DNA of 64,000 nucleotides from Candidatus Brocadia pituitae (GTDB taxonomy: Bacteria > Planctomycetota > Brocadiia > Brocadiales > Brocadiaceae). A model generated the notes under the pieces. It was not told the DNA's origin, searched no databases, and saw only the letters and a list, made by a program, of their open reading frames with translations. Shown in pieces: positions 4,360-56,529 of the stretch. The translations under genes and the position numbers were made by a program. The stretch is taken from contig AP021856.1 in assembly GCA_017347445.1 (NCBI GenBank), positions 2,240,613 to 2,304,612 of the forward strand, in the 5' to 3' direction. The stretch's first letter is position 1; each line of letters begins with the position of its first letter.

Positions 4360-4456
4360 GGGAGTGCATGTCGGCTGGTGTCGGCGACGGACTTCAAATC
4401 CGGTCTGTCCTGCTTCTAGCGGGATAGGTGGGTTCGATTCCCACACGCTCCCGCCA
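4360..4456 (+). tRNA. selC: tRNA-Sec (selenocysteine, anticodon UCA)
   Basis: The gene folds as a selenocysteine tRNA. The acceptor GGGAGUGC pairs with ACGCUCCC through seven pairs, with the eighth a C-A mismatch. The D-stem has six base pairs (two GUCGGC arms around UGGU), as is typical of tRNA-Sec. The anticodon loop CUUCAAA places UCA at the anticodon. A long variable arm (UCCUGCU paired with AGCGGGA) is present, and the T-arm reads GUGGG UUCGAUU CCCAC. The 3' end GCCA is encoded, giving 97 nt. The organism therefore probably decodes UGA as selenocysteine. No selA, selB or selD gene lies in the window. The 3' end is directly followed by a truncated hsdR remnant on the other strand. Confidence 0.95.
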
Positions 4457-30079: not shown

Positions 30080-31342
30080 TTACCAAATACATTCCATTTC
30101 TATGCCAATACCTTCTGAGCTGAAATCGATTTCGACAGGAGAAATTTTGTTTTTCATATTGTCGGCCAGAAGTTTTACCTTTGGTTTCGCCATCTGGCGG
30201 GTATTTAATGAAGATACCACTCCGGTAAAATTCATGTAGTTGCCATTCTTGATTCTTATTTCACAACCTACCGGATATTTCGGCACCACACTTAAAAAAC
30301 AGTCAACCAATTCTTTGTTGAATTGTGTTCCTGCCCCATTTTTTATCAGTTCATATACCATGTCAGGCGGCAATCCTGGACGATATGGTCTGTCTGAACT
30401 ACAAGCATCATAAACATCTGAAAGCGCTGCAATTTCTGCAAACATAATCAATTTCTCCCGATCAGTGAAAGCAACGCCTTTGTCGTCAAGTTTATTTGTA
30501 CCCCTCAATCCCCGCGGATACCCTCTGCCATCCTGTCTTTCGTGATGCTGGTATGGAATATGTGCTACTACCGTCCCAATGCTGTGAATATCTTTCAATA
30601 ATTCATATCCGTAGGTTGGATGATATTTTATGGCGTTGAATTCTTCCGCCGTTAATTTCCCTGGCTTGTTAATTATTTTTTCGTCGATAAAGATCTTTCC
30701 AATGTCATGCAAAAATTCACCAATTGCAATCTGTACTAATTTTTCTCTGTTAAGAAGAAGCTTTTTTCCGATAATTATGGATATTACTGCTGTATCAACA
30801 GAATGTTCATAGGTATAGTTATCAACACTCTTTGATGAATTCAGCCCGGACATAACATCCTGTTTCATAATTTCATCAATGAAATAGTGTATGCCATTAC
30901 ATAGATGTTCAAAGGCTTGACTTTCATGAAATGACTTCTTGATCTTTGGCGTATTAATGCACTTTATGATAGACTCGGTGTTTTCAGCCTTTATATTTGT
31001 TATAGCGGACTGAGTTACTTTATAGGTCTTAAAAATATCTCTCACCGACATAATCCGTATTTTATCCGATATCGGGTCATGCAGGACAATGTCCGCCGTT
31101 TCATCATCATCAATATATATACGGACATACCCCCTATTTTTCAAAAGGTTGATATAGGCACTTGTTAAGGCAACCCCCTTATTTAACAGCACCTCATAAT
31201 TATATCCGTAAATTGTTTTGCCAAGCACCATGCCTGGCACTACTGAATTTATTTTAATGCGTCTCATACGGTCAATTATCGGTTCATTTATCTCTTCATT
31301 AAAATCGTATTGCTCATGATATTTCTGCGACTGCCCCGCCAT
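30080..31342 (-). CDS. HD-GYP domain protein (likely c-di-GMP phosphodiesterase)
   Basis: The 420-residue protein has an N-terminal domain (about residues 26-180) like that preceding many HD-GYP modules. The HD-GYP catalytic region follows with EFLHDIGKIFIDEKI, HPTYGYELL, IPYQHHERQDGRGYPRGL (HHE and GYP signatures) and SDVYDACSSDRPYRPG. Such enzymes cleave c-di-GMP to pGpG or GMP. A C-terminal extension from about 345 begins PKYPVGCEIRIKNG, a DUF3391-like tail. The listed start overlaps hpnB by 55 bp; a later ATG at 31267 (MRRIKIN) would remove the overlap and I consider it the likelier start. A c-di-GMP riboswitch elsewhere in the window supports c-di-GMP use. Confidence 0.85.
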   Translation of the reverse strand: MAGQSQKYHEQYDFNEEINEPIIDRMRRIKINSVVPGMVLGKTIYGYNYEVLLNKGVALTSAYINLLKNRGYVRIYIDDDETADIVLHDPISDKIRIMSVRDIFKTYKVTQSAITNIKAENTESIIKCINTPKIKKSFHESQAFEHLCNGIHYFIDEIMKQDVMSGLNSSKSVDNYTYEHSVDTAVISIIIGKKLLLNREKLVQIAIGEFLHDIGKIFIDEKIINKPGKLTAEEFNAIKYHPTYGYELLKDIHSIGTVVAHIPYQHHERQDGRGYPRGLRGTNKLDDKGVAFTDREKLIMFAEIAALSDVYDACSSDRPYRPGLPPDMVYELIKNGAGTQFNKELVDCFLSVVPKYPVGCEIRIKNGNYMNFTGVVSSLNTRQMAKPKVKLLADNMKNKISPVEIDFSSEGIGIEMECIW

Positions 31343-47595: not shown

Positions 47596-49269
47596 TTATA
47601 GACTTTTACGGCGAACAGGAAATTTTTTTTTCGTGACTACCCGTAGGTTCCGGCTCGGCAATACCTCCGGCATCGTTATCTGCAATGCCTCTAAGAGTTC
47701 TTGTGATTGTTGTCGCGGGCGTGGTATCTTCTGACACTGCGCCTTTTGACCCTTCACCTTCACTTCCATGGAACAAATGGTCGTCAATTGTTTGAGACCT
47801 TCCTCGACCGTCAGATCAAAACCCGTCCACGCATCGCGTAACCTTCGGATTACCATATATGCAAGCATTACTGCAAACACATGCCCTCGCGTACTCTCCT
47901 CCCTCCTTACGTACACGGGACGCACCTCAAGATTCACCGCCTTGCACGTCCGAAACACCTTCTCCACCTCCGACAAGTCCTTGTATCGGTCGTGTACCAT
48001 GTATTTGTCCGCTTCGCTCTCCTTCAGGTCCGTCTTGATTACATAACATCCGTCAAGATGCGACTCCTCCTGTAATGCGACACCATCCCTCTCTATCCTC
48101 AGCGTACCGGCTTCGTCTCTTATCTGTACCCATGTCTCCAGCTTCAGCTTCCTGAGCTTCTCCTTTGCTGCGTCCAGCGCCTTTGCCACCGATGCCCTCG
48201 GATGCTCTCTCAGATAACCATTCTTCTTCCCGATGTATCTCTCCATACTCTGCAATTTTGATATGCGGGTATTCGCCACCTCTACCGCCCTCACCGGATT
48301 GCGCCTCAGAATATACCGCACCCCCTTATCCTTTATCTCGCAGAGCTTTTCTTCAAACAACTCTAATTGCAGAAGCCCTTTTTTTATCAACGCCTCTATC
48401 TGCGGTTTGGTTATTGCCGTTATGGAACGAAATCTTTCCGGGAGATATTCGATTTGCATCGTCTTGATCATGCCCCAATCCCCTACGAATGTCACTTCTA
48501 TGCACCCAAATCGCCCCAATACCTTCCTTATCTGAGACTCAAAGGTCTTTGGGTCCTGAGTGTTACCAGCAAAAACCTCCGTTGATACCGGCTCCCCATA
48601 TTCATCACATAACACACCAATTACGATCTGCTTTTTCCTCTTCTCGCCGTCACGATTATACCCGTACTCGCCAAAATGATTCCGCTCCCCTTCCAAATAA
48701 CTGCTCGTCACGTCATACAGAAACAACTTCGGCTTCTTGTCCCCTCGTCTTACCTCAAACAGCTTTCGCTCTATCTTCGCCTGGTTCTCCGACAACCACG
48801 CCAAATTCTCGTACAAATCATTCTCGTCAAATCCCCGCTTCATATCCAAAACATCACCCGCTGCATGTACCTGCGCCAGTCTTAACGCTGAGAGTTTTGA
48901 CCCCTGATCTATCACCCGCGCCATTATCTGCCACAGCGCCAGCTTTCCCTCAAAGTCCTTCCCCAAGGCCTCCTCTATCCCTAATCCCTTTGCCACCTGG
49001 TATACACTCCACGATGCTCCAACGGACAACCCCTCCTGAAGTCCTACCTCTGAGAGTGTACCCAATGCACAGAGGTCGTCTTTATGGCTGAGCGCAAGCT
49101 TTATCGCTTTGATCTCCTGGGGCGTGCAATTCGACAGATTTGCAATGGTACGTTTCTTGACTTTCCCTTCCTCGCGATACGATTCTCTCAGAAGAATAGA
49201 CCGATAGATTTTTTTGCCGGATTTTGATTTGTTCTCTACAATATGCATGTCCACAAAAACATACCACAT
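47596..49269 (-). mobile_element. IS1634-family transposase gene (intact)
   Basis: The 557-residue DDE transposase is of the IS1634/IS4 superfamily type. FLYDVTSSYLEGE carries the first Asp region. GVLCDEYGEPVSTEVFAGNTQDP and VTFVGDWGMIKT carry the second, and KDLSEVEKVFRTCK the Glu region. The reading frame is complete without stops, suggesting recent activity. No terminal inverted repeats could be defined by eye in the 80 bp outside the gene, so the element borders are unknown. It splits the polysaccharide region between the DegT/WbqC block and the secreted-protein gene. Confidence 0.85.
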
Positions 49270-49819: not shown

Positions 49820-52800
49820 TCAGATTGAGCCATTTGTATATAAATTTTGCACTTCCTGGCTGCTCAATGCCTTGCTATGAACCTCTACATGGTCAACTTT
49901 GCCATTGAAGTGACCATAATTCGGCATTAATGTCCCTATGGCCATATACGACGCTGCGGAATATGGCACAATTGTATTCCCCGCCGGGTGAGTTTGTGTA
50001 TTCACGAGCTGACCATCCACATATAATTTCTGTTCACCCGTCGATTTATTGTATGTGCCCACAACATGAAACCACTTGCCAGTAGACGTTATCAAATCCT
50101 TGATTGCATACTTTTGAGTTTTCGTGCCCCCGGATGTTTTACTCGTTACGATAAACTTTATGGTATTTTTCGTACTGCCGTACTGATCAAAATACAATCC
50201 ATATCCCTGCACATTGGACCATGACCAGCCGCCAAAAATAGTATCCGGATTCGCCGTATCGACTGAATTCCGGTAAAACCACGCTGAGACTGAAATCTCA
50301 TCATAGTTTAAGTAAGGAATCGATACATAATTACTGGTACCATTAAAATTCAATGCCCCCCCGAATTTTCCAGCAGTCCGGGTAGCTCCATTAACAGTTC
50401 CATGCTTCCCATTTCCTGAAGAATCTGTCGCCGTAGTTCCACTCCCTTCATCAAATTTGTAAAGTCCTTTCACATTGGTAGACGTAATTATTGTTGTATC
50501 CAAAGTAATGGAATCGCTGACAGTATTTGACACATTCCCTGCGGCATCCTTGTACCAGGCATAAACTGTCTTAACCCCATTCCCGCTGCTTAACGTATAC
50601 GAAACATTTCCGGTGTAATCAAAAGTGGAGGCAACAGACGTCCAACCCGTAGCAGATGACAGGGGTTTGGTTGAACTCATTGAGAGATAATACCCTGTTA
50701 TTCCCACGTTATCCGTAGCCGAAAGTGTTAACGTAACCGTTGTGGAATTGGTATGGGTGGCGTCACTGTTGATACTGATTGAACACTGCGGTGCTATGGT
50801 GTCCACGCTTGAGACAGCTGTTGGTGGCGGTAATTTCCACGTACCATAAGAACCGCCTACATAAACATAGCTATCGTTAGGTCTTACCGTTATTGTATGC
50901 GCAGTAAAACACGTGCTTAAATTTCCAGAAATATTACTCCAGGTATTTCCGTAATCAAGCGAACGAAAAATACCGTTTGCGGCCCCTTTATATGCTGAGT
51001 ATTGTCCAGCGTAAACAACATTTGGATTATTAGGGTCAGCCGACACAAGATAATAATTCATTTCACCGAATTGATCTTTACTCAACCCATGATTAGAATT
51101 CTTCAGTGTAGCAATACCACCGTTTACCGCTGTGTTATTGATTATCCATATACCAGCACTATGATATGGTGTTGTCCCTTTCATCGCAATATATATCCTG
51201 TTTTCATCATTGGGGGCTACGGCAATTTGTCCTACATGCCCACTTGCCGGTATTGTAGGATATGGCGATGTCCAGGTATAACCACCATTCGTTGATTTAT
51301 ATACCTTTGTAATGCCCCCCCCACTTGTTACTGAGTAAACAATATCACCATTGCCAGGATACATCTCAGAAATGGGCATTGGAAGTGTTGTATAATTATT
51401 ATTAGTTTGTATGCTGGTAAATTTGTATCTGCCAGCATAAACAATTTGTGCATTTGTGGGATGAAATCTAATAAGGTTATACACACCCCCAGTGCCTGAA
51501 ATTTCCGTCCACGTTAGCCCTAAATTTCTTGTAACCATAAGCTTTTGATTATTCCAATCACCTGACGCAGCTATTGCTATCTGCGAACCCGGGGTATGAT
51601 CAAGCGCACCAGCATTAGTTGATCCCCAGCCAATAGATCCAACCGCTTTTCTTTTTACAAAAGTACTTCCGCCATCAGTAGTTAAAAATGGCCCCCAGTC
51701 TGTCAAAAACAACATATATCTATTAGGATTATTCTTATCCCAACCAACAGTGCCTCCAAAACTTCCGCCCGTATATTTGTCACCACACCACGTCCAGTTG
51801 AGTCCCCCATCAGTAGTCCTTCTTGGTTGTTCTCCACTACAGAGAGTAATTGCAACGTTTTTGTTAGTCGGATGGACGGCTGTTGGTGTAATATAACCAT
51901 GTCCTTTTACCATGTTGAAATAATTTTCAATAGAACCCAAATAGTTGTTTACATCCATGTTGACGGGAGCATACCAATTTGCCCCACCATTTTGGGTGTA
52001 AAAATATCCATACGGTGAATACGCACTATCTCGATCATAACTTACATACAGATAGTTAGGATCAACAGGACTTATTGTAATGCTGTATGCCCTATATCCA
52101 GCGGTAAGTGTACTCGACATACCAGTATTTCTGGCACTAAAAGTTGTTCCTCCATCTGTGGAACGATAAACCCCGTAAGAACCCAGGGTAACATACAGCA
52201 TGGATGGATTATTTTTATCTATGGCTATTTGATAGGGGTAACTTGGTAGTGCTAGTCCTATCCTTGTCGTTGTTATCGATCCTGAATCTTTTACCCGATA
52301 CAAACCATTTGTTGTGCACATATATAAAATGGTCGAATCCTTGGGATGTATTTTTATGTCGGTGATATAGCTAGGGCTGCTCACAATGGTCGTCCATGTA
52401 GTACCGCCATCAGTTGACCGCAATAACCCTGCTCCATGTGTACCTGCGTAAACAGTGCTTGCACCAGAAAATGCAAACAGATTTGCGCCTTTAGAACGGC
52501 TATCCCGTCGATACAATGTCTCTTTTACCTTTGTCCAGCTACTCGCCCCATCACTCGTCCTGTAAATGCCCTGGGCAGAACCGGCAGGACCTGCCCCACT
52601 GAGATACATTGGGCATCCGGCAACAAACACTATGTTGGAGTTTGTTGGGTGAATGCCCAAGGATTGTCCGCCGAGTGCACCAAAGCCATTTATTGCAGGT
52701 TGCCACGTTATTTTGCCGCTGCTATCAGTCCCTTTCCAGACTCCGGAAACATCTATTACCATATATAAAACACTAGGGTTAGACGGTGCATATTTTATAT

Positions 52801-54511
52801 CCTGAACCGCCTGAAACCCTTCGCCACCAAAGAATCCTGCTGCTTTTTGAGCACTCGTTCTTATAGGTACCTGTTGCCAGATATGCGAAGAGACAGCCTG
52901 CTGAGCGAGCGTAGCCTTTGTGCCGATATCTTTTTTATTCCGCTTTTTGGAAGAAACAGACTCAACCCACGCCATATCCGACAATCCATTGTTATTTTCT
53001 CCTCCACGAGAAGCCTCGCTACTGGATGTTCTGTCTGGCTCTGAATTGGTGGCCACGGTTGACTGACTACCCCCAGACCGACCACCATCCGTTGATACCG
53101 TTACAATGTACCCCTTCCCCAAATCATCTTTGCTCTTTAATCGTATCTCGTTGCCAACAATACTAACGTCATTCTTCCCATCCCCCGACTCAATAAAATG
53201 GCTATTCGCACGCTGTACCGTGGTTACCGTTTCACCGGCATTGAGTGTTATTGCCCCCGACAGCGTTAAAAATACCGCAAATAATTTTCCTGTCACCGGA
53301 TGCCGTGAATACATAACATCTCCACTCGCATAACTCTTTGTGCTTCTATACACACTTCCGTCCCATGCCCGATCAGGAAGCGTCACCTTATTAAGATTAT
53401 CCCAGTTGGGTAAACACCGGATGAGTTTCAGCCGGGGATGTATCTCAGAGATGTCATGAAACTCAGGCATGCCATCCCCACACCAATTATACCATGCCCC
53501 GTGAATGCCCGCCTTGGCTGCAAAGAGACGATTCTTATATTCATCCGCTTCGCCAGACTGGGAGATGCCAACCGCGTCTTTCGTAATAGCCACCCCTGAA
53601 TTAAAATTCTTCTCTTCATCCACAAAATCCGCGTGCCCTCCATGTTTCTGACTAAGCATGTCTGGCGTTAGCACATCCTTATCTGCACGATCCTTTATCT
53701 GATAGATCCATTCATCCGTATCCACTTCACTATACAGTACTGATGGCTGGACAATCCATCTCGGATTCTCAAACTCCTCGGCAAGTCTTGCCCTCAATTG
53801 CCTATAAAAGGCAACCTTTCCATCCGAATACGTCGCATACTCATGGGTAATAGTATCATGCACCAAACCAGAATCTGTTCCAGTCCAATAAGACAAACCG
53901 ACCGGTATGTTCTTTCCCTTTTCATCTAACCGATAGAACTCACCCTCAAGCCTCGGCTCATCCATTATATATCCACCAAAGGTAAATGGCAAACCCTCAC
54001 CCTCATAACTCTTTGCCAGACGAATAATCTGCTCCACAACCTCATCAATAACCGCCTGCTGCTGAAAATCCCATATCACGGAAATTTTCTCAGCATCACC
54101 GGCATGCTGATACCCGGTCGCCAAATTATGGGGAAATGGATCGTTACTCCTCCATACCATCCGCTGATTATAATATTCCTTTGCTGCCTCTGAAACAGGT
54201 TTAGTAATATCGATATCCCTCTCATACCCTGCTAAGACTTGCGGATAAAAATGGGGATTGACAAGATAAAATTTAAGGCCAGCACATTCGGTGTTTCTAT
54301 GGTACTCTTTGGGAGAAACCGATGGATTTATAGCAATATACTCATATCCCATCTGTCGTGCATATTTGATATCCCCGTCTGGTTTTGTATTCCCTGCCAT
54401 GCCATAATAATTCCGGTAACCTTGCTCCGACGCTGTAACCTGCTGACTTATAAAAAACGACTGCGTGAAAAGAAAAAATAAACACCCCAACAAATGCATA
54501 GTCACTTTCAT
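49820..54511 (-). CDS. Large secreted modular protein (glycosidase-like, propeller, Ig-like, LamG)
   Basis: The 1563-residue protein starts at an ATG (54511) with AGGAG nine bases upstream. A signal peptide is clear: MKVTMHLLGCLFFLFTQSFF then cleavage near QQVTASEQ. Residues about 30-470 form an alpha/beta domain with FTFGGYIMDEPRLEGEF, resembling a TIM-barrel glycoside hydrolase active site (proposed by motif only). A Ser/Lys-rich linker lies at about 490-560. Residues about 570-1225 are repeated blocks with STDGGTTW, SNPSVLYM and similar units, typical of BNR/sialidase or VPS10-like beta-propellers. Residues about 1230-1335 are an Ig-like domain (CSISINSDATHTNSTTVTL), and 1345-1563 a LamG-type lectin (KFDEGSGTTATDSSGNGKHG). 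A c-di-GMP riboswitch lies just upstream. Likely an extracellular or surface glycan-interacting protein. Confidence 0.85.
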   Translation of the reverse strand: MKVTMHLLGCLFFLFTQSFFISQQVTASEQGYRNYYGMAGNTKPDGDIKYARQMGYEYIAINPSVSPKEYHRNTECAGLKFYLVNPHFYPQVLAGYERDIDITKPVSEAAKEYYNQRMVWRSNDPFPHNLATGYQHAGDAEKISVIWDFQQQAVIDEVVEQIIRLAKSYEGEGLPFTFGGYIMDEPRLEGEFYRLDEKGKNIPVGLSYWTGTDSGLVHDTITHEYATYSDGKVAFYRQLRARLAEEFENPRWIVQPSVLYSEVDTDEWIYQIKDRADKDVLTPDMLSQKHGGHADFVDEEKNFNSGVAITKDAVGISQSGEADEYKNRLFAAKAGIHGAWYNWCGDGMPEFHDISEIHPRLKLIRCLPNWDNLNKVTLPDRAWDGSVYRSTKSYASGDVMYSRHPVTGKLFAVFLTLSGAITLNAGETVTTVQRANSHFIESGDGKNDVSIVGNEIRLKSKDDLGKGYIVTVSTDGGRSGGSQSTVATNSEPDRTSSSEASRGGENNNGLSDMAWVESVSSKKRNKKDIGTKATLAQQAVSSHIWQQVPIRTSAQKAAGFFGGEGFQAVQDIKYAPSNPSVLYMVIDVSGVWKGTDSSGKITWQPAINGFGALGGQSLGIHPTNSNIVFVAGCPMYLSGAGPAGSAQGIYRTSDGASSWTKVKETLYRRDSRSKGANLFAFSGASTVYAGTHGAGLLRSTDGGTTWTTIVSSPSYITDIKIHPKDSTILYMCTTNGLYRVKDSGSITTTRIGLALPSYPYQIAIDKNNPSMLYVTLGSYGVYRSTDGGTTFSARNTGMSSTLTAGYRAYSITISPVDPNYLYVSYDRDSAYSPYGYFYTQNGGANWYAPVNMDVNNYLGSIENYFNMVKGHGYITPTAVHPTNKNVAITLCSGEQPRRTTDGGLNWTWCGDKYTGGSFGGTVGWDKNNPNRYMLFLTDWGPFLTTDGGSTFVKRKAVGSIGWGSTNAGALDHTPGSQIAIAASGDWNNQKLMVTRNLGLTWTEISGTGGVYNLIRFHPTNAQIVYAGRYKFTSIQTNNNYTTLPMPISEMYPGNGDIVYSVTSGGGITKVYKSTNGGYTWTSPYPTIPASGHVGQIAVAPNDENRIYIAMKGTTPYHSAGIWIINNTAVNGGIATLKNSNHGLSKDQFGEMNYYLVSADPNNPNVVYAGQYSAYKGAANGIFRSLDYGNTWSNISGNLSTCFTAHTITVRPNDSYVYVGGSYGTWKLPPPTAVSSVDTIAPQCSISINSDATHTNSTTVTLTLSATDNVGITGYYLSMSSTKPLSSATGWTSVASTFDYTGNVSYTLSSGNGVKTVYAWYKDAAGNVSNTVSDSITLDTTIITSTNVKGLYKFDEGSGTTATDSSGNGKHGTVNGATRTAGKFGGALNFNGTSNYVSIPYLNYDEISVSAWFYRNSVDTANPDTIFGGWSWSNVQGYGLYFDQYGSTKNTIKFIVTSKTSGGTKTQKYAIKDLITSTGKWFHVVGTYNKSTGEQKLYVDGQLVNTQTHPAGNTIVPYSAASYMAIGTLMPNYGHFNGKVDHVEVHSKALSSQEVQNLYTNGSI

Positions 54512-54542
54512 ACGTACTTCTCCTAACAAAAGATTATTCAAA

Positions 54543-54626
54543 CAAATATGGCAACCTGGCTGTCTTCATGGAAGACCCATGGCTTTGCGTCCCAACCTCA
54601 CGGTTGGCTTGCCCTTTTCAAATTTG
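54543..54626 (-). promoter_or_regulatory. c-di-GMP-I (GEMM) riboswitch
   Basis: On the minus strand the leader reads GGGCAAGCC, a CCAACC stem with a GUGA tetraloop and GGUUGG, then GGACGCAAAGCC. A second stem (GUCUUC with GAAGAC) and ACAGCCAGGUUGCC follow. This is the GEMM-I consensus, including the GNRA loop and its receptor-like strand. A closing stem CAAAU/AUUUG is possible. Its 3' end is about 32 nt from the start codon of the secreted protein. The sequence between has no terminator, so control is likely at translation initiation (the SD is AGGAG). Whether c-di-GMP turns it on or off is not decided by the sequence alone. Confidence 0.9.
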
Positions 54627-54699
54627 TCCCTTGATTTCAGTTTTTTTGATTATGCGCTCTGGCCCTCTGCGGTAATCTGGTTTTTTACATTTTTGAAAC

Positions 54700-54738
54700 A
54701 AAAAAAGCCTTTGATGACATTTCGTCAATTACAAAGGC
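54700..54738 (-). terminator. Orphan intrinsic terminator upstream of the riboswitch
   Basis: On the minus strand GCCTTTG (54738-54732) pairs with CAAAGGC (54713-54707), followed by seven T residues. It lies about 75 bp upstream of the riboswitch with no annotated minus-strand gene feeding it. A short RNA ending here is possible, or it insulates the riboswitch promoter. Confidence 0.65.
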
Positions 54739-55401
54739 ATTAATTATTACGCTAGATAATTACTTAAAGAAATCTTTCTCTATCTCTGAAAAAATACACT
54801 ATAATCTTCCTGTACCTCGAAATTTTTTATTTTGATCCAATAACGGTTTATGCTTCATGCCGATAATACAAAAGCACAGAGAATGCCATGAACTTTAAAA
54901 AAAATATATTTATGCTCTTAAGGTTGTAAAGCTCTAGATATCAGCATATTGTTAGTTATAACAATTCTTTAATTCCATAATCTGTCACAAGAATAATTTA
55001 CAAATGGTGACATGTTTTCTATACGTGATATGTTTGAATCCTTTGAAATGCCTGTAAAATGGGCAGAGCAAGCATGCAACTTTTTGTAGCACAGGTTATA
55101 TGTAACGATTGTAACCAAAGCCAATACTATATCGGTGGCGAAACCGTTATTTACTATTAGTATTGCCCAGTTAAAAAAGGAAAAGAGATGATTAGTTATT
55201 GCTTTTTTGATTGACTTCTTTTACCGAATCAAATACGATGACTGGCGAAGTGAGGGGATCTGTTTGAGGATCCATATTCTAAAGTCATTGTGAACGAGAT
55301 TTGTTGGCAAATGAGCCGTTTTTTCTTACCTTTTAACAACCAGATTCGTTTAATTCATCACGTTTTTAAGATAAACATTTTGATGTAAAGATATATTTTT
55401 A
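54739..55401. other. Intergenic region, no gene recognised
   Basis: This AT-rich 660 bp stretch precedes the divergent GT4 gene. I find no open frame of convincing coding character and no further GEMM motif. It could contain a small RNA read toward the terminator at 54700. Confidence 0.4.
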
Positions 55402-56529
55402 ATGAATAAACTGAAAATTGCATATATTGGTCAACGAGGAATTCCCCCTACTTTTGGCGGAATTGAACGTTATGTTGATGAAATAGTAAGACGGCTACCG
55501 AAACATGAAGCTGAGACATACACATACTGCAGAAGACATTACGTTGAGAACAATTACGTTGATTATACCAAACAGTTGTTTGTTCCTAGCTTAGAAACCA
55601 AAGGACTCGAAGCCTTTAGCCACTCATTTTTTAGCTCGGCTGATTCTCTAAGACATAATTTTGATATAATACATTTTCAAGCCCTTGGCCCTTCTTTGTT
55701 TTCATGCATTCCAAAAATTATTGGCACAAAGATCGTCGTTACTATACACGGACTTGATTGGGAAAGGGCAAAGTGGGGGCAAGTAGCAAAATCCATTTTA
55801 AAACTTGGCGATTGGATGGCTGGCCACTCTGCTTCGGCACTTATTAGTGTTTCGAAAAAACTTAAAAATTATTATGAGGATAAGTATAAAACGCCTGTAT
55901 TTTATATACCTATAGGCTTTAGCGAACCAAAATTCGTTGAAATTAACGAGATATATAAAAATTTTGGATTGGAACCTTTTCAATATTTATTATTTTTGAA
56001 TCGTCTTGTTCCTGAAAAAGGCGCACATTATCTTATTGAGGCATTCAAAAACATAAAACAAGAAAATTTTAAGCTTGTAATTGCTGGTAGTTCCTTCCAA
56101 GGAGATACGTACGTAGATAATCTTAAAAAAATGGCGAGGGATGATTATAGAATCATTTTTACTGATCATGTGTCTCGTCAAATGGTTCACGAATTATACT
56201 CGAATGCCTATCTTTTTGTTTTACCTTCAGAATTAGAAGGTATGCCTGCGGTGGTTTTAGAGGCTTTAAGCCATAAATGTCCTGTGTTGATCAGTGATAT
56301 TGAAGAAAATTTGGCTGTTATTAAAACTGAAGACAGGCTATATGGATTTACCCATAAAAACAAGGATGTCGTGGATCTCGAGAGGCAAGTAAGATTTCTG
56401 CTAGAACATCCCGGATCGGTACGAGAGCTGCGTCAACCAGGATATGATTTTGTATATCAAAATTATTCCTGGGATAAAGCCGTTCAGATGACATATGATG
56501 TTTATAAGTATATCATGGGGAATAAATAA
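55402..56529 (+). CDS. GT4 family glycosyltransferase with DUF1972-type N-terminus
   Basis: The 375-residue GT-B protein begins KIAYIGQRGIPPTFGGIERY, a DUF1972-like donor-loop start used by rhamnosyl- and related transferases. HFQALGPSLF and TIHGLDWERAKWGQVAKS follow, and the C-terminal Rossmann half has LFLNRLVPEKGAHYLIEAF and LPSELEGMPAVVLEALSH, the family 4 E-x7-E motif. The start ATG at 55402 has no strong ribosome site. It opens a + strand operon with an epimerase, HddC, HddA and GmhA, with gaps of a few bases or overlaps. It probably uses the GDP-heptose or related sugar made by that operon, though this is an inference. Confidence 0.88.
   Translation: MNKLKIAYIGQRGIPPTFGGIERYVDEIVRRLPKHEAETYTYCRRHYVENNYVDYTKQLFVPSLETKGLEAFSHSFFSSADSLRHNFDIIHFQALGPSLFSCIPKIIGTKIVVTIHGLDWERAKWGQVAKSILKLGDWMAGHSASALISVSKKLKNYYEDKYKTPVFYIPIGFSEPKFVEINEIYKNFGLEPFQYLLFLNRLVPEKGAHYLIEAFKNIKQENFKLVIAGSSFQGDTYVDNLKKMARDDYRIIFTDHVSRQMVHELYSNAYLFVLPSELEGMPAVVLEALSHKCPVLISDIEENLAVIKTEDRLYGFTHKNKDVVDLERQVRFLLEHPGSVRELRQPGYDFVYQNYSWDKAVQMTYDVYKYIMGNK

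Follow-up and report, generated by a model that had tools for sequence, protein, structure and literature searches.

A predicted c-di-GMP class I riboswitch upstream of a large exoprotein gene in an anammox bacterium of the genus Candidatus Brocadia

The aptamer and the exoprotein gene

A complete c-di-GMP-I (GEMM-I) riboswitch aptamer lies upstream of a gene encoding a 1563-residue protein. Both are contained in a 64-kb stretch of DNA, the whole of which was analysed and is referred to here as the window. The relevant features of the window were as follows.

54622 to 54627, minus strand: 5' arm of P1 (ACAAAU), pairing with AUUUGU in the folds
54546 to 54622, minus strand: complete c-di-GMP-I aptamer
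54542 to 54547, minus strand: 3' arm of P1 (AUUUGU), pairing with ACAAAU in the folds
54520 to 54524, minus strand: Shine-Dalgarno sequence AGGAG, 8 nt before the ATG, at a position conserved in homologues
49820 to 54511, minus strand: target gene, an ORF for a 1563-aa protein with an N-terminal signal peptide (Sec-like, by inspection); its ATG is conserved in homologues
53078 to 54427, minus strand: N-terminal domain (aa 29-478), modelled as a TIM barrel followed by a beta domain
50867 to 52834, minus strand: BNR/Asp-box beta-propeller (about aa 560-1215, limits approximate)
50477 to 50815, minus strand: Ig-like module (about aa 1233-1345), with many separate matches in relatives and recurrent in their exoproteins
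49847 to 50344, minus strand: LamG/concanavalin A-like module (aa 1390-1555; PF13385, E 6.9e-21)
30080 to 31342, minus strand: HD-GYP-type c-di-GMP phosphodiesterase (HD_5; motifs HDIGK and HHERQDGRGYP), given as context

The aptamer was evaluated by running cmscan over the whole 64-kb window. The clan member preferred by cmscan was RF03167 (c-di-GMP-I-GGC), which matched over the full length of the model (positions 1-80) at 68.2 bits (gathering score 59, E 5.1e-14), and RF01051 matched the same place at 70.5 bits. The original prediction had called a GEMM-I motif and proposed a covariance search with RF01051 as a check. Indeed, the element is a complete aptamer above both gathering cut-offs, the RF01051 threshold being 35, and the GGGACGCAAAGCC core, the GUGA loop and the CAGCCAGGUUGCC end were all found in it. 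The interval proposed at the time, 54511-54626, spans aptamer plus spacer: the aptamer itself stops at 54546, on the minus strand, and a spacer of 34 nt separates it from the ATG at 54511.

The secondary structure was assessed using an alignment of nine homologous leaders. The aptamer pairs were intact in 99.4% of cells, versus 27-46% after the pairing partner was slid, and P1 cells were paired in 97.8%. Three pairs of P2 showed two-sided compensatory changes. Among the aptamers of the genome, the window copy ranks within the top five. We consider it highly probable that this is a genuine riboswitch of c-di-GMP class I, with the 1563-aa exoprotein gene as its target.

The N-terminal domain of the protein yielded no Pfam match for residues 29-478 at E values up to 10 and no credible PDB match in a family profile search. 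A structure model built with 23 homologues reached a pLDDT of 91.5 and a pTM of 0.91; an earlier 520-aa model from 17 sequences had a pLDDT of 58 before distant homologues were added. The structural neighbours of the domain were GH36 (Z 14.4), Cwp19 (13.9), GH20 (13.6) and GH168 (13.5), and nearly all of the top matches were glycosidase TIM barrels (Z 12-14 over 255-305 residues, approximately 10% identity). The domain thus resembles GH36/GH168-type glycoside hydrolases in its TIM-barrel fold but differs from them in having only about 10% identity and no sequence-profile match. The only acidic residues invariant over the 23 sequences were D148 (in WDFQQQ), D284 and E441. In the propeller region, NCBIfam NF045728 (E 8.9e-27) and BNR both matched below their cut-offs, the former curated, and PDB 3b7f also matched.

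Based on the model, the N-terminal domain is predicted to be a glycoside-hydrolase-like TIM barrel. The target is probably a large exported carbohydrate-active protein with a putative enzymatic activity, and it may have a role in the extracellular matrix. An IS1634-family transposase (window 47596-49269) adjoins the gene.

The ligand-binding pocket

In the covariance-model alignment, the pocket of the window aptamer consists of a G just 5' of P2 (Vc2 G20), an A in J2/3 (A47) and a C in J1/3 (C92). To verify this mapping, we compared it with the junction of the cGAMP aptamer, in which J1/2 is A9-A14, P2 is C15-G40, J2/3 is A41 and J1/3 is G74-C75 (PMC6274999). The element thereby shares with c-di-GMP-I (RF01051, GEMM-I, the Vc2 type of Vibrio cholerae) the full aptamer, the P1/P2/P3 junction, the GUGA tetraloop in P2 and G20/A47/C92, whereas its anammox Planctomycetota host, its target family and its terminator-free leader set it apart. 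It scores above the cut-off of c-di-GMP-I-GGC (RF03167) but has an A in J2/3 where the consensus of that family has a G (CGCGAAG), and because of this A the pocket was classed as an ordinary c-di-GMP pocket. We read the "GGC" of the RF03167 name, from the model consensus, as referring to the J2/3 G.

Many GEMM-I riboswitches of Geobacter (GEMM-Ib type) respond to 3',3'-cGAMP, including 12 of the 17 in G. sulfurreducens (PMC8835794). The window aptamer has the same fold as these, and three of the 48 aptamers in its genome carry an A at the specificity position; it is nevertheless very improbable that the window aptamer itself binds cGAMP, as it has a G at that position, and in the Gmet_0970 riboswitch A20G alone switched the ligand from cGAMP to c-di-GMP (PMC6456294). 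The genome encodes 16 GGDEF and 6 EAL domains. A Ser at the GGDEF selectivity position is the mark of Hypr cGAMP synthases; the residue was Asp in all 15 of the 16 sequences in which it could be read, and Ser in none. We therefore rejected cGAMP specificity on the basis of G20 and the absence of Hypr GGDEFs among the 15 readable sequences. The pocket residues and the lack of Hypr-type cyclases support c-di-GMP as the ligand that the window aptamer would bind. The HD-GYP protein at 30080, put forward in the original prediction in support of a c-di-GMP economy, does possess intact HD and GYP motifs (HDIGK and HHExxDGxGYP).

The Geobacter cGAMP riboswitches also resemble the present set in the size of their regulon, which covers many surface and extracellular genes in each genome, G. 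sulfurreducens containing 17 GEMM-I riboswitches (PMC6456294). The host genome differs in having about 48 aptamers. The three aptamers that share the A of cGAMP riboswitches at the specificity position are L041 (2823847), L060 (128045) and L064 (3564239). One of them sits before a sigma-54 response regulator, in a genome in which no Hypr GGDEF was found.

The riboswitch set of the host genome

The host, an anammox bacterium, belongs to the genus Ca. Brocadia. Its genome, a single contig of 4.08 Mb, contains two hydrazine synthase alpha loci. RF03167 gave 47 matches in this genome, 17 of them over the cut-off, and RF01051 gave 45, of which 44 exceeded it. Together, these correspond to 48 places. 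Genus mates had 22-57 matches per genome. Among 119 sampled planctomycete genomes, with at most 33 candidates scored in each, none outside the genus had more than 6; other members of the family had up to 24 matches with RF03167.

At 31 of the 48 aptamers, the 3' strand of the aptamer is matched just downstream by an exactly complementary segment of 7-11 nt that precedes a T-run (GCCUUACUGC ... GCAGUAAGGC-UUUUUU). Near-exact versions of this terminator occur at several more, and at 3305260 the two arms vary in concert (CCUUCCUG/CAGGAAGG). Ligand binding would keep the 3' strand within the aptamer, which would prevent the terminator from forming and leave transcription ON. From this anatomy, we infer that the terminator-type copies act as transcription ON switches. 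A terminator of this kind is absent from the window copy, its paralogue and a few others.

Downstream genes were assigned mechanically: the gene taken was the largest of the ORFs beginning within 900 nt, a rule that can misassign individual genes. Their products included PKD/cadherin and FG-GAP exoproteins, an autotransporter beta-domain, Big-domain proteins, a pseudopilin, and Kelch and SBBP propellers. Also among them were a polysaccharide epimerase, a glycosyltransferase, two sigma-54 activators, an amidase and a cytochrome c'.

In approximately ten aptamers other than the window copy (e.g. L014, L035, L038, L040 and L060), the P3 loop contains a TTTAAAC-rich palindromic repeat of which the rest of the genome has almost no copies; four contain or adjoin a ACCGCAAAGACGC repeat. 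The aptamer appears to have spread together with its P3-loop insert. We considered the P3-loop repeats as freely mobile elements and rejected this, as they are almost confined to aptamers or their edges and look like part of the cassette.

Conservation of the leader and possible modes of switching

Homologues of the protein were sought in genome contigs; the full protein gave no match, and matches were obtained with the alignment of the domain. The same genome encodes a paralogue, a 2091-aa ORF with 98% identity over the first 480 residues and 69% over 1393, whose leader contains two tandem aptamers (70.9 and 72.2 bits). Other Brocadiaceae homologues, with 51-72% identity in the N-terminal domain, likewise have an aptamer directly upstream, as does a homologue (43% identity) on a contig labelled Omnitrophica and possibly misbinned, approximately 190 nt upstream. 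This conservation of the aptamer-gene link in the paralogue and relatives bears out the earlier assignment of the large secreted protein as the target. The Shine-Dalgarno sequence, its spacing and the ATG are also conserved. Because the ATG and Shine-Dalgarno sequence recur in homologues, a longer ORF beginning with TTG is an unlikely start.

The aptamer is missing from homologues in Jettenia and Loosdrechtia, whose leader sequences are different, and some further Brocadia copies are likewise without it. The leaders suggest that, in Jettenia and Loosdrechtia, another regulator may have taken the place of c-di-GMP. Four of these leaders (L072, L073, L075 and L076) have TGTGACATG-type palindromes, resembling a CRP/FNR site, and a TTGCA...TGCAA hairpin. 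Just upstream of the riboswitch leader of another homologue (L085, 4293-4363) is a weak group II intron match of 41.6 bits (cut-off 40).

A pattern scan of 54300-55450 revealed no terminator-like site, and the genome-wide comparison of aptamers likewise revealed none between the window aptamer and the gene, in agreement with the original prediction. Approximately 80 nt upstream of the aptamer (54700-54740, minus strand), a hairpin GCCUUUG...CAAAGGC followed by UUUUUUU looks terminator-like; it has no preceding gene on the minus strand and is absent from the pattern-scan list.

Without a terminator, translational control, which had been thought probable from the start, remains the best reading: the window copy and its paralogue probably act on translation. 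Neither leader folds nor the covariation check revealed an anti-Shine-Dalgarno element common to all homologues. In the window leader, base-pair probabilities indicated an alternative pairing of UAUUUGUUUGAA, comprising the P1 3' arm and spacer, with UUAGGAGAAGUA in the Shine-Dalgarno region, which competes with P1. In constrained folds of 143-171-nt leaders, this alternative lay approximately 3 kcal/mol above the P1 fold, a difference within reach of ligand binding energy. The predicted accessibility of the Shine-Dalgarno sequence was nearly equal in the two states, at 0.56-0.60 with P1 formed versus about 0.48 with P1 open, and the competition in the window leader, which has no covariation support, is suggested by these models.

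In the corresponding mechanism, c-di-GMP produced by the cell's GGDEF enzymes would bind the junction and stabilise P1. With P1 formed, its 3' arm could not pair with the Shine-Dalgarno sequence, and translation would be ON at high c-di-GMP. We lean towards this polarity for the window switch, which is in line with the terminator-type ON majority among the other c-di-GMP-I riboswitches of the genome.

The opposite polarity, in which P1 and an outer helix sequester the Shine-Dalgarno sequence and the exoprotein is made at low c-di-GMP, involves the same aptamer and target and would suit a glycosidase-like product of the dispersal type, such as a matrix-releasing enzyme. In five distant homologues, UCUUUUG-AGGAG has a possible pairing partner upstream, CUUCU/UCUCC-CAAAAGA, so that the two would enclose the aptamer. 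When the ligand is absent, the anti-Shine-Dalgarno segment would be captured by an upstream hairpin that competes with P1. The window copy, however, has neither the upstream hairpin nor the anti-Shine-Dalgarno segment, the outer helix has no covariation support, and most other switches in the genome have ON-type terminator anatomy, which makes an OFF switch unlikely here. A conserved outer helix P0 with an anti-Shine-Dalgarno segment was rejected, being present in five homologues but lacking covariation and absent from the window copy.

That the leader is a decayed relic, having lost a first aptamer and its expression platform so that the remaining aptamer no longer regulates, is more doubtful still. 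The intactness of the window aptamer, its rank in the genome and the conserved Shine-Dalgarno sequence, spacing and ATG all argue against decay, even though the window has one aptamer where the paralogue and two other loci have tandem copies, two homologues have a half aptamer beside an intact one, and the folds show no clear switching. The L070 and L071 leaders, and position 1639348 in the host's own genome, each have an intact aptamer with the 3' half of a second, decayed one downstream of it. The region between the two in L071 includes a 12-bp stretch complementary to the Shine-Dalgarno sequence (GGUAUUUCUCCU/AGGAGAAAUACC).

Little is known about how the granules and biofilms in which anammox bacteria operate are regulated. 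No pure culture of Ca. Brocadia exists (PMC11224092), and c-di-GMP has been linked to anammox aggregation (Guo 2017, as cited in PMC8851195). The literature searched, which covered few subscription papers, contained no earlier report of c-di-GMP riboswitches or RNA effectors in anammox bacteria. The riboswitch class is already known; what is new relative to that literature is that it occurs in anammox bacteria, and on this scale, and that it is linked to an undescribed family of glycosidase-fold exoproteins. The conserved riboswitches provide a concrete list of c-di-GMP targets for a genetically difficult organism, and the set points to what may be an undescribed family of carbohydrate-active exoproteins.

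A broader reading can be offered tentatively. In Ca. Brocadia, c-di-GMP may act to an unusual extent through RNA, with an aptamer-terminator cassette multiplied to about 40 near-identical ON switches preceding exported, adhesin-like, polysaccharide and regulatory genes, and a second, translational subtype driving the glycosidase-fold exoprotein family. If true, this RNA-centred arrangement would tie the building and remodelling of the granule matrix directly to the second messenger.

Elsewhere in the window, a selenocysteine tRNA was detected at 4360-4452 (67.9 bits).
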